NCBI GenBank assembly: GCA_032881465.1
Contig: CP126168.1
Location: forward strand, 3,535,501 to 3,599,500
DNA length: 64,000 nucleotides
Direction: 5' to 3'
From: Parvibaculaceae bacterium PLY_AMNH_Bact1
GTDB lineage: Bacteria > Pseudomonadota > Alphaproteobacteria > Parvibaculales > Parvibaculaceae
Made by a program: the position numbers and the translations under genes. Each line of letters opens with the position of its first letter. Within the stretch, counting starts at the first letter, position 1. Of this stretch, positions 31,951-35,999 are shown piece after piece. The notes beneath the pieces are model-generated. The model saw nothing but the letters and a program-made list of their open reading frames with translations. It searched no databases and was not told where the DNA came from.

Positions 31951-32187
31951 AGATGGTGTTTGCCGTTTCTCAAAACACCCCCATTGAGCCTCATTAGATC
32001 CCGCGCTAACATTCAGATATGAGACAGGATCACAGCCATATTCCGAGCAAAACCAAGGGCGAGCTCCTGGTCCTGTGCGCGCGCATTGGATTCAATCCGT
32101 AAGCAAATCTCCCACGGCCCAACGCCGCCACCAATGTCAGTTTCATTTCATTGATTGAGGGACAGAACAGTCCCGGGAGAAAACAAA

Positions 32188-33561
32188 ATGTCTCAAGCAG
32201 CCACACTTTCAAACCAGACCAAACGCTGGCAGGAAATGGATGCCGCCCATCACCTGCATCCCTACACCACCCATCATGAGCTCGCCGCCAAGGGCGCGCG
32301 GGTCATCACCCACGCAGAAGGGGTTTATCTTTATGACTCCGAAGGCCAACGCCTGATTGATGGCATGGCGGGCCTCTGGTGCGTGAACGCGGGCTATGGT
32401 CGCAAGGAACTTGCCGAAGCGGGAGCGAAAGCGCTCACCGAACTGCCCTACTATAATAACTTCTTCCAGACGACGAACCCCTATGTGGCAGAGCTCTCTG
32501 AAAAGCTCAGCACACTGACGCCTGGGAACCTCAACCAGTTTTTCTTTGCCAATTCCGGATCAGAAGCCAATGACAGCGCGGTCAAGATGATCCGCTTCTT
32601 CTGGAACCTTAAAGGAAAGAAAACGAAGAAAACCATCATCGCCCGCAAACAGGCCTATCACGGGGTCACTATGACGGCGGCCTCGCTCTCCGGCATTCCG
32701 TCCATGCATCCGCAGGCCGACCTGCCGCTGCCGGGCTTCACCCATATCGACTATCCCTACTGGTATGGCGAAGGCGGCAACAGCGACCCCGCCGAGTTTG
32801 GCTTGAAGGTCGCGCAAGCGCTCGAAACCAAAATCCTGGAGCTGGGCGCCGACAATGTCGCCGCCTTCTTTGCTGAGCCGGTCCAGGGCGCGGGCGGTCT
32901 TGTTATCCCGCCAGACACCTACTGGCCGGAAATCCAGCGCATCTGCAAGAAGCATGACGTGCTGCTCCATGTCGACGAAGTCATTTGCGGCTTTGGCCGC
33001 ACCGGCAAATGGTTTGGTTCCGAGACCTTCAACATTGAGCCCGACAGCATGTCCATGGCCAAAGGCATGACGTCTGGCTATCAGCCGCTTTCTGCTGTCG
33101 CCGTCGGCCCGCGTATGGGCGAGACGCTCTTTAATGCAGACGAAGAATGGTCTCACGGCTTTACCTATTCCGGCCACCCGGTCGCCTGCGCCGTGGCTCT
33201 CGCCAACATTGACGTCATGGAACGCGATCACCTGGTGGAAAAAACCGGCGGGGAGATTGGCGACTATTTCCAAGGCAAGCTCAGCGAGTTGAGCAATCAT
33301 CCCATCATCGGCGAGACGCGGGGCATAGGACTCTTGGGCGCCATGGAGATTGTGAAGAACAAAGAAACCCGTGAACGCTTCGGCGATGCCGGGGGTATCT
33401 GCCGGGATCATTGTTTCGAGAACGGCCTCATCATGCGCGCCATTGGCGACACGATGGTCTTGTCACCACCGCTTTCCATCACAAAGCCGGAGATTGATGA
33501 ACTCTTCGGCTTGGCAGTGAAGGCTCTTGACCTCACAGCAGAGAGCCTCGGCGTTTCCTAA
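32188..33561 (+). CDS. Class III aminotransferase (polyamine:pyruvate type, SpuC-like)
   Basis: About 457 residues from ATG 32188, preceded by GGGAGAAAACAAA; an earlier ATG at 32155 lacks a site. Class III omega-aminotransferase pattern: YDSEGQRLIDGMAGLWCVNAGYG, FFANSGSEANDSAVKM, VDEVICGFGRTGKWFG, and cofactor Lys292 in MSMAKGMTSGYQPLSAVAV. This group accepts putrescine, cadaverine or beta-alanine with pyruvate. With the PuuA- and PuuD-like genes 3-6 kb upstream, a polyamine-catabolic role is likely, although repeats and the TPR gene intervene. Confidence 0.9.
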   Translation: MSQAATLSNQTKRWQEMDAAHHLHPYTTHHELAAKGARVITHAEGVYLYDSEGQRLIDGMAGLWCVNAGYGRKELAEAGAKALTELPYYNNFFQTTNPYVAELSEKLSTLTPGNLNQFFFANSGSEANDSAVKMIRFFWNLKGKKTKKTIIARKQAYHGVTMTAASLSGIPSMHPQADLPLPGFTHIDYPYWYGEGGNSDPAEFGLKVAQALETKILELGADNVAAFFAEPVQGAGGLVIPPDTYWPEIQRICKKHDVLLHVDEVICGFGRTGKWFGSETFNIEPDSMSMAKGMTSGYQPLSAVAVGPRMGETLFNADEEWSHGFTYSGHPVACAVALANIDVMERDHLVEKTGGEIGDYFQGKLSELSNHPIIGETRGIGLLGAMEIVKNKETRERFGDAGGICRDHCFENGLIMRAIGDTMVLSPPLSITKPEIDELFGLAVKALDLTAESLGVS

Positions 33562-34039: not shown

Positions 34040-34242
34040 GCCCAGATTTAATTCTTAAGGTCTATATTCTTGGCAGGGTTAAGACCGCGCAACAGATCTT
34101 GCAAAAACTGGCGGTGATCCAGTGAAAACGTCGGAAACATGAAGAAAATCATAGAGTTAACGGCACGTCATCCATTTATAAACTGTTAGTGATTTTCACC
34201 AGATTGCATTGAACGCGGACGCCCTCAGTCCTATCTATAGTC

Positions 34243-34395
34243 TCAGACAGGCGGAAAACTTGAGGACCTCGTCCCCCCGAAACTCCTCGCTGTGAGTTTT
34301 CCGCCCGCCCCCGGCACCGATCTATCCCCTCTCGGTGCCAGCGCAGAGTAAGCGCATGAACGCCCCGCCAGCCCCCCCTTAGGCGGGGCGTTTTC
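34243..34395 (+). ncRNA. Candidate small RNA with three C-rich loops and intrinsic terminator
   Basis: In about 150 bases with no reading frame: hairpin 1 (GGCGGAAAACT 34250-34260 with AGTTTTCCGCC 34295-34305, plus inner GAGGA/TCCTC); hairpin 2 (GGCACCGA 34313-34320 with TCGGTGCC 34332-34339); then terminator CGCCCCGCC/GGCGGGGCG (34361-34390) with TTTT. Loops hold CCCCCC, CCCC and CCCCCCC respectively, and the linker at 34303-34312 is also C-rich. TATAGT at 34236 or TTGAAC-N17-TATCTA upstream could be the promoter. C-rich loops are the hallmark of small RNAs that pair with ribosome binding sites. No named family is recognised. Confidence 0.65.
34361..34394 (+). terminator. Intrinsic terminator of the candidate small RNA
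   Basis: Nine-pair GC-rich stem CGCCCCGCC/GGCGGGGCG, 12-base loop with seven Cs, then TTTT. A second copy of the right arm plus tail (AGGCGGGACGTTTTCATG) lies at 34428-34445 and can pair with CCCGCCT at 34403-34409, forming a tandem structure. Confidence 0.85.
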
Positions 34396-34499
34396 ATATC
34401 CCCCGCCTAGTCTTTCTGTTTTTGGGAGGCGGGACGTTTTCATGTCCACCTTCCAAGCCTCCCCTTTAGAAGATCAGCCGCCCGGGATATAAGGGGCCC

Positions 34500-35111
34500 A
34501 TGAGCATGGACTATTCAGGGGCCGAACCCCTTTCTGACGCAGAACTGGAAGAGCTGGCGCTTGAAATGCCGGCGCTGGCATTGCTGCGCGACTTTGGTCG
34601 CCAGGTCGCCGACATTCCCTGGTTTACAGAATTGGGCACCCCGCTGCGCGGCGACACCAAAACCGTGAGCCAGGCCTATCTCGACGCACTTGGCTTCCCC
34701 GATGTGCGCCCCGCCCGCATTTCCAATTGGGACGATGCGATCATTGCCGCCGAAAGCGGCGACTGGAACGGCGGAGCCTGGGAAGCAGAAGAAGGCCTGC
34801 GCGCCTCCCTCTCAACGGACCTGCTTGATGTCTTAAGCGAAGAAGCCTTTGAGATCGGCTTCACTTATGCAGCCTCTGAAGCAGAACCTGCGGTGCGCAT
34901 GGCGGCAGAGACCGCCGCCAACATCTGGGGCGTGGAAGACATGGAAATCGCCATCGCCGCGGCAGGCGCCGCCATGCAGGCTGTCCACGGCGCAGCGCTC
35001 GCCACCGCCATTGGCGCAGAGGAAGATCACCCCTTCCTCTTGCGGCTTAAACTTTTCGAACAAGGCCGCTGGCCCATCGGCGTCGCAGGCCTTACCTTCA
35101 ACATCTTCTGA
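34500..35111 (+). CDS. Hypothetical Ala/Glu-rich protein
   Basis: 203 residues, no family recognised. The N-terminal part (LSDAELEELALEMPALALLRDFGRQ) and the middle (YLDALGFPDVRPARISNWDDAIIAAES) read as a helical, soluble protein; the last third is Ala-rich (AIAAAGAAMQAVHGAALATAIG) but has acidic residues and is not clearly transmembrane. The base composition and codon use match the neighbours, so it is likely a genuine gene. It lies between the small RNA and xthA; cotranscription with xthA (69 bases away) is possible. Confidence 0.7.
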   Translation: MSMDYSGAEPLSDAELEELALEMPALALLRDFGRQVADIPWFTELGTPLRGDTKTVSQAYLDALGFPDVRPARISNWDDAIIAAESGDWNGGAWEAEEGLRASLSTDLLDVLSEEAFEIGFTYAASEAEPAVRMAAETAANIWGVEDMEIAIAAAGAAMQAVHGAALATAIGAEEDHPFLLRLKLFEQGRWPIGVAGLTFNIF

Positions 35112-35180: not shown

Positions 35181-35999
35181 GTGCCAAAACTAAAAACACT
35201 CAAAGTCGCCACCTGGAACATCAACTCGGTGCGCCTGCGCATTGAGAGTGTCGAAAAATTCCTGAAAGAGCAGAAGCCCGACATACTCTGCCTACAGGAG
35301 ATCAAGTGCCACAATGATGTGTTTCCCGAGAAAGCTTTTAAGAAGGCAGGCTATGGACACATCGCGCTCAACGGCCAGAAGGCCTATCACGGCGTTGCAA
35401 CGGTCAGCCGCGTGCCGCTCACCAACATCGAAGCCCGCGAGTTCTGCAACAAGGGCGACGCGCGCCATGTCGCCGCCACCGTGCCTGACGCAGGCGATGT
35501 CCGCATCCACAATTACTATGTACCCGCAGGTGGCGACGAGCCTGACGTGGAAAAGAACGATAAGTTCGCCCACAAGCTCGACTTCCTGAATGAGATGGAA
35601 GCCTGGTACAAAAACCATAAGAACAAAAAGACATCAAAGATGGTGCTCGTGGGCGACCTCAACATCGCACCGTTCGAACATGATGTCTGGTCTCACAAAC
35701 AACTTCTAAAAGTAGTGAGCCACACACCGATCGAAGTGGAACATCTTGAGCGTGTCCAGAAGTCTCATTCCTGGATCGATGTCATGCGGGAATTCGTGCC
35801 TCACGAAGAGAAACTGTATTCGTGGTGGAGCTACCGCGCGAAAGACTGGAAAGCTGCCAATAAGGGCCGCCGCCTGGATCATATCTGGGTGACCCCTGCC
35901 ATGGAGGGCGCGGCGAAATCAATGGAAGTCCTGACCGATGCTCGCGGCTGGGAAAAACCGTCCGACCACGCGCCGGTCATTGCCACCTTCAAAGTCTAA
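35181..35999 (+). CDS. xthA: Exodeoxyribonuclease III
   Basis: 272 residues from GTG 35181. Signature motifs: LKVATWNINSVRLRI (metal Asn), DILCLQEIK (catalytic Glu near residue 34), NYYVPAGGD, VGDLNIAP (Asp-Asn near residue 155), RLDHIWVT and the final SDHAPVIAT His. It nicks DNA at abasic sites and trims 3' blocked ends in base excision repair. In many alphaproteobacteria it directly follows lolA; here it is separated by the polyamine/repeat region. Confidence 0.95.
   Translation: MPKLKTLKVATWNINSVRLRIESVEKFLKEQKPDILCLQEIKCHNDVFPEKAFKKAGYGHIALNGQKAYHGVATVSRVPLTNIEAREFCNKGDARHVAATVPDAGDVRIHNYYVPAGGDEPDVEKNDKFAHKLDFLNEMEAWYKNHKNKKTSKMVLVGDLNIAPFEHDVWSHKQLLKVVSHTPIEVEHLERVQKSHSWIDVMREFVPHEEKLYSWWSYRAKDWKAANKGRRLDHIWVTPAMEGAAKSMEVLTDARGWEKPSDHAPVIATFKV

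Follow-up and report, generated by a model that had tools for sequence, protein, structure and literature searches.

A probable RusT-like small RNA gene with C-rich loops near xth in Parvibaculaceae, and its relatives across Alphaproteobacteria

The window analysed here, a 64,000-nucleotide stretch of the genome of Parvibaculaceae bacterium PLY_AMNH_Bact1, contains the gap of 460 bases that an earlier note on this DNA had reported (34040-34499); it holds no ORF of at least 80 aa. Upstream of the gap lie a class-III aminotransferase gene and a glyoxalase-like gene, not lolA; downstream lie an unnamed conserved protein gene and then xth. Within the gap we delineated a small RNA gene that is single-copy in the source genome. 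The features of the locus are:

32185..33561, + strand: class-III aminotransferase gene (PF00202), the 5' synteny marker in the family
34208..34213, + strand: -35-like element ATTGAA, kept in the genus and upstream of the RNA in the family; putatively assigned by comparison with the consensus
34231..34236, + strand: -10-like element CTATCT, 17 nt past the -35-like element; conserved in genus and family
34243..34395, + strand: small RNA gene (probably RusT-like, with C-rich loops); fold z-score of -7, covariance-model matches in genus, family and class, and covariation
34250..34305, + strand: hairpin H1, a long two-part stem with C6 at 34273-34278 in the apical loop
34313..34339, + strand: hairpin H2, an 8-bp stem with loop TCTATCCCCTC and C4 at 34326-34329; stem pairs compensated
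34341..34355, + strand: hairpin H3 (GCGC-AGAGTAA-GCGC), between H2 and the terminator; loop not C-rich
34358..34395, + strand: hairpin H4, the intrinsic terminator, a 12-bp stem with a C7 loop (34372-34378) and a TTTTC end; the stem covaries
34402..34433, + strand: second terminator-like inverted repeat (CCCGCCT...AGGCGGG) 3' of H4, recognised from sequence
34500..35111, + strand: unnamed conserved protein gene directly 3' of the RNA, its product without a Pfam match; synteny marker
35181..35999, + strand: xth (exodeoxyribonuclease III-like, PF03372), with orthologues adjacent in relatives; synteny marker

The predicted RNA unit comprises four hairpins over ~153 nt. It folds (34243-34395) with a minimum free energy of -70.7 kcal/mol, where shuffles average -45.9 (z -7.0), none of 200 shuffles folded as well, and the z-score was still -4.3 once the terminator had been removed. 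The C6, C4 and C7 runs of the + strand each fall inside a predicted hairpin loop; the earlier note had placed all three correctly, but counted three C-loop hairpins and missed H3. A contact between the H2 and H3 loops (CUCU/AGAG) is conceivable, within this genus only. A short ORF at the terminator (ATG AAC GCC CCG CCA GCC CCC CCT TAG) was rejected as it is not kept, with ACG for ATG in two genomes. The repeat 3' of H4, when folded alone with its flanks, prefers another pairing; a unit related to the repeat at 34402-34450 is present in a sister genome (G003, locus L010, 1383-1541) as 3.5 tandem copies of 46 bp that are 98% alike, and a duplicated terminator half lies downstream in many Parvibaculum relatives.

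The alphaproteobacterial sigma70 consensus is CTTGAC-N17-CTATAT. The arrangement found 5' of the RNA, ATTGAA-N17-CTATCT (34208-34236), is close to this consensus and recurs, slightly altered, in the genus and in most family members, and we infer from it a sigma70-like promoter that would serve the RNA, with a predicted 5' end at ~34243-34245. Nothing at the RNA locus was picked up by a generic scan for promoters and terminators; its terminator criteria, which require 3-8 loop bases and five T among eight, missed H4 with its TTTTC end. The ~150 nt 5' of the promoter (34040-34205) are also conserved in the genus; they include a TTTATAAACTGTTAG block ahead of the -35-like element and, in most of the genomes, GCAA-N6-TTGC, and may constitute a candidate regulator site. 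Several Parvibaculum members carry a TTTACA...TGTAAA inverted repeat in place of that upstream block.

By blastn, the RNA is present in each of the seven genus genomes at 76-100% identity; outside the genus the search returned nothing but short chance matches. Given that blastn is blind past the genus, covariance models were needed. Model R1, built from the seven genus sequences, matched 33 of 40 genomes in the family at E<1e-4; model R2 matched 38 of 40 at E<=0.1, the majority far more strongly; and model R3, built from 52 diverse matches, matched 69 of the 386 class genomes sampled (E<=0.01), with one match per genome in almost every case. The covariance-model search of alphaproteobacteria that the earlier note had proposed thus yielded matches at the level of genus, family and class. 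No family of Rfam 15 reached its gathering score for the RNA, and no credible match was obtained in 20 wider relatives. Matches to Rfam microRNA families in locus L134 (1645-1723) were set aside as chance resemblance: they fall on a near-perfect ~79-bp palindrome near another family's RNA locus and scored on both strands.

The stems are supported by extensive covariation. In the alignment of the 52 matches, which leans to structure as it is model-fitted, 33 of the 36 base pairs showed double-sided change and 95.2% of cells were paired; when partners were slid by 1-3 columns, paired cells fell to 39-47%. A free MAFFT/RNAalifold alignment of 28 family members gave double changes in 12 of 24 pairs. 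Many of the one-sided changes are from G-C to G-U on the + strand and, since these would break pairs on the other strand, the + strand is the functional one. The most conserved loop is that of H2, with CCCC in 56 and CCCCT in 54 of 60 matches; the H1 loop has at least four consecutive C in 48 of 60, and the less conserved terminator loop a C-run in 38 of 60. As the C-loops of H1 and H2 are kept and that of the terminator less so, these two, of the three, are likely the working parts. Compensatory stem changes alongside conserved C loops, the test that the earlier note had set for itself, were therefore found for the stems and for the fixed H1 and H2 loops; its claim that all three loops are C-rich holds for the C runs in place here, deep conservation being confined to H1 and H2.

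Gene order was followed alongside the RNA. Across the family it is aminotransferase - RNA - unnamed gene - xth, and in other families ftsK - lolA - RNA - (unnamed gene) - xth. The unnamed protein family (~200 aa, C-terminal GRWPIGxxGxTFNxF) lies beside xth across several orders. Among 80 genomes of a named collection chosen solely for carrying the unnamed protein (Parvibaculum, Tepidicaulis, Kordiimonas, Maricaulis, Emcibacter, Parvularcula and others), ∼57 loci had an R3 match 5' of the unnamed gene on the same strand. Of the 20 distant R3 matches examined, 14 have lolA and/or xth within 3 kb and six are located elsewhere in the genome; several distant members are 111-119 nt long, with the same order of elements. 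The R3 matches far from lolA and xth (L254, L255, L260, L261, L265 and L266, other class members) could be relocated copies or separate C-loop sRNAs. The place of the RNA amid polyamine genes, which the earlier note had left unexplained, corresponds to a family-wide block and, in other alphaproteobacteria, to the lolA-xth slot.

That slot is occupied in Caulobacter crescentus by RusT (CCNA_R0199), a 118-nt RNA between lolA and xth that is stand-alone on Northern blots (PMC11005374). RusT has four stem-loops by probing, the last being the terminator and SL3 being bound by Hfq, and a conserved sequence in its second loop (nt 45-57, including C53) pairs with TonB-receptor and ompW mRNAs (PMC11005374). 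It represses TonB receptors, is induced by iron starvation or zinc, and is directly repressed by NtrX under non-inducing conditions; homologues have been reported only in close Caulobacteraceae (PMC11005374). Set against this published description, the RNA studied here likewise has four stem-loops with the terminator last and a conserved second loop, and its wider family shares the lolA-xth slot. H2 would be the counterpart of the RusT target-recognition loop, and H3 takes the pre-terminator position of the Hfq-binding SL3. The two differ in length (∼153 nt here versus 118 nt) and in the extra unnamed gene and the aminotransferase that flank the RNA here. On position and architecture, with RusT compared by description only, the RNA is most likely the positional and structural counterpart of RusT.

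Structure, covariation, loop conservation and synteny of the RNA are direct observations. Building on them, our preferred reading, which we hold to be likely overall, is that the locus encodes a ~150-nt regulatory RNA with its own promoter and intrinsic terminator, a RusT-like member of a lolA-xth-region family with anti-Shine-Dalgarno C-loops. That the locus is no gene at all, only a repeat or GC-rich hairpins that happen to lie together, might be suggested by the high GC content and by the duplicated terminator repeats nearby, yet this is refuted by the covariation, and loop conservation and synteny across orders also speak against it, leaving the idea with a negligible probability. The RNA could instead act in cis as a leader or attenuator of the unnamed gene and xth, with the terminator setting read-through into the operon, and in most loci it does lie on the same strand ∼100-450 nt 5' of the unnamed gene. 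In three loci of another family (L137, L140 and L248), however, the RNA is followed by a convergent M1 peptidase gene, which leaves it nothing to lead. A second terminator-like repeat follows the RNA here, conserved anti-terminator pairing was not seen, and the RusT of that slot shows on Northern blots as a free-standing RNA of 118 nt (PMC11005374); a cis leader is accordingly improbable.

A somewhat less remote alternative, though still an unlikely one, is that the lolA-xth C-loop sRNA is not homologous to RusT, position and the four stem-loops being convergent and the function different (for example, activation of the GsrN kind). The comparison with RusT by description, the difference in length, the six of 20 distant model matches that lie elsewhere in the genome, and the ability of C6 loops to activate, as in GsrN (PMC5869019), would all fit such a view; the lolA-xth position, the length of 111-119 nt in some distant members, the order of the stem-loops and the conserved second loop are, by contrast, what the RusT description contains. 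Descent from Rfam family ar7 (Smr7C/sra03, RF02342) as a divergent member was also weighed. This is the nearest Rfam family by loop, a series of hairpins whose central loop is C-rich and conserved (consensus AUcCCCCUCUCC) and resembles H2, and it gave a weak whole-length match (21.1 bits, E 0.04 in a 461-base search). That score is well below the gathering score of 60, ar7 has three hairpins, and sra03 lies between polA and SMc02851 (PMC2245857), whereas the locus here is not next to polA. In one genome (G025) the best ar7 match and the RNA are at separate places, the best relative reached 34.4 bits at another locus, and no match occurred in 20 wider members. Membership in ar7 was rejected, and we regard it as very improbable.

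Other families with comparable loops were tried and set aside. Both 6C (RF01066; 22.2 bits versus a gathering score of 47) and sX13 (RF02232; 16.4 bits versus 50) have repeated C-rich loops as here, and are known from other classes or phyla. RNAs of the Cuckoo/CcsR/NfeR1 type resemble this one in having several hairpins with anti-Shine-Dalgarno loops, although their loci differ; Cuckoo-type RNAs carry CCUCCUCCC loops, and that motif is in none of the loops here (CCUCGUCCCCCCGAAAC, UCUAUCCCCUC and AGCCCCCCCUUA), so that membership in the type that the earlier note had named as an example is not supported. EcpR1 (SmelC291) has the conserved loop UCCGCCGCAUCU and lies between divK-pleD and rpmG; loops and neighbours differ here. 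Membership in GsrN was considered and found unsupported. The C6 loop of this Caulobacter RNA binds a G-tract in the katG leader and activates katG (PMC5869019), and six tandem C in an exposed loop, pairing with G-rich mRNA leaders, constitute the likeness; GsrN differs in being sigmaT-dependent, and its blastn homologues are in Caulobacteraceae only, mostly near the general stress response locus.

For the RusT-like RNA, trans-acting pairing to G-rich ribosome-binding sites would be the likeliest mode of action. The H1 CCCCCC and H2 UCCCCUC loops would serve as exposed seeds that pair with the G-rich Shine-Dalgarno regions of several mRNAs, so blocking translation; H3 and the U-tail would form the likely Hfq site, as in RusT, making the RNA probably Hfq-dependent. 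The RusT precedent suggests a possible role in iron or envelope homeostasis, and activation is also possible, as with the GsrN C6 loop on katG. Targets were predicted over 2.06 of the 3.74 Mb of the genome, and of 228 predicted H2-loop sites in that portion, 115 lie at -10 to 0 of start codons. The gathering of H2 sites at this position is in line with the Shine-Dalgarno pairing proposed in the earlier note; reversed loops, however, gave a similar number of targets over the same 2.06 Mb, with 82 of ∼278 H2 sites at -10 to 0 and 91 more at -20 to -10. As reversed loops cluster alike, anti-Shine-Dalgarno pairing is not distinguished from composition. The top H2 candidates (pdxJ, a class-V aminotransferase read as sufS, an SNF transporter, a cold-shock protein, gcrA and a nuoF-like subunit) form no clear set. 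The sufS candidate was rejected, its site being kept in nearer relatives only; the two most divergent species of the genus lack it. With no clear set, controls that score alike and a sufS site that is not widely kept, no target is claimed. The source genome has only five TonB-receptor genes, one of which lies in the searched part, without a strong site; with so few, the RusT regulon is not simply transferable.

Many alphaproteobacterial sRNAs are known from a single genus or order. Here, RNAs from Parvibaculaceae, Maricaulis, Parvularcula and Emcibacter are brought together at a single locus by one covariance model, with RusT as the probable example already under study. The RNA is probably a real C-loop trans-acting sRNA unlisted in Rfam and part of a wider family that includes RusT; what has been a finding in Caulobacter alone would then extend to a class-wide family missing from Rfam. 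More tentatively, and with somewhat less than even confidence, we propose a core alphaproteobacterial sRNA older than several orders, kept at ftsK-lolA-xth with two separate C-rich seeds, of which RusT would be a lineage-specific form and whose ancestral job may have been to gate Shine-Dalgarno sites for envelope or metal homeostasis. The ancestral target set and the evolution of the seeds become testable. In Emcibacter-type relatives the H1 loop has changed to AUUCCUUCCUCAG and the H2 loop to UUUUCCCUCCCCCUU, which are still pyrimidine-rich and complementary to ribosome-binding sites; in four such loci (L202, L204, L196 and L197) the C6 run of H1 is lost and CCUUCCUC and CUCCCCC loops are kept, a natural experiment in seed change.
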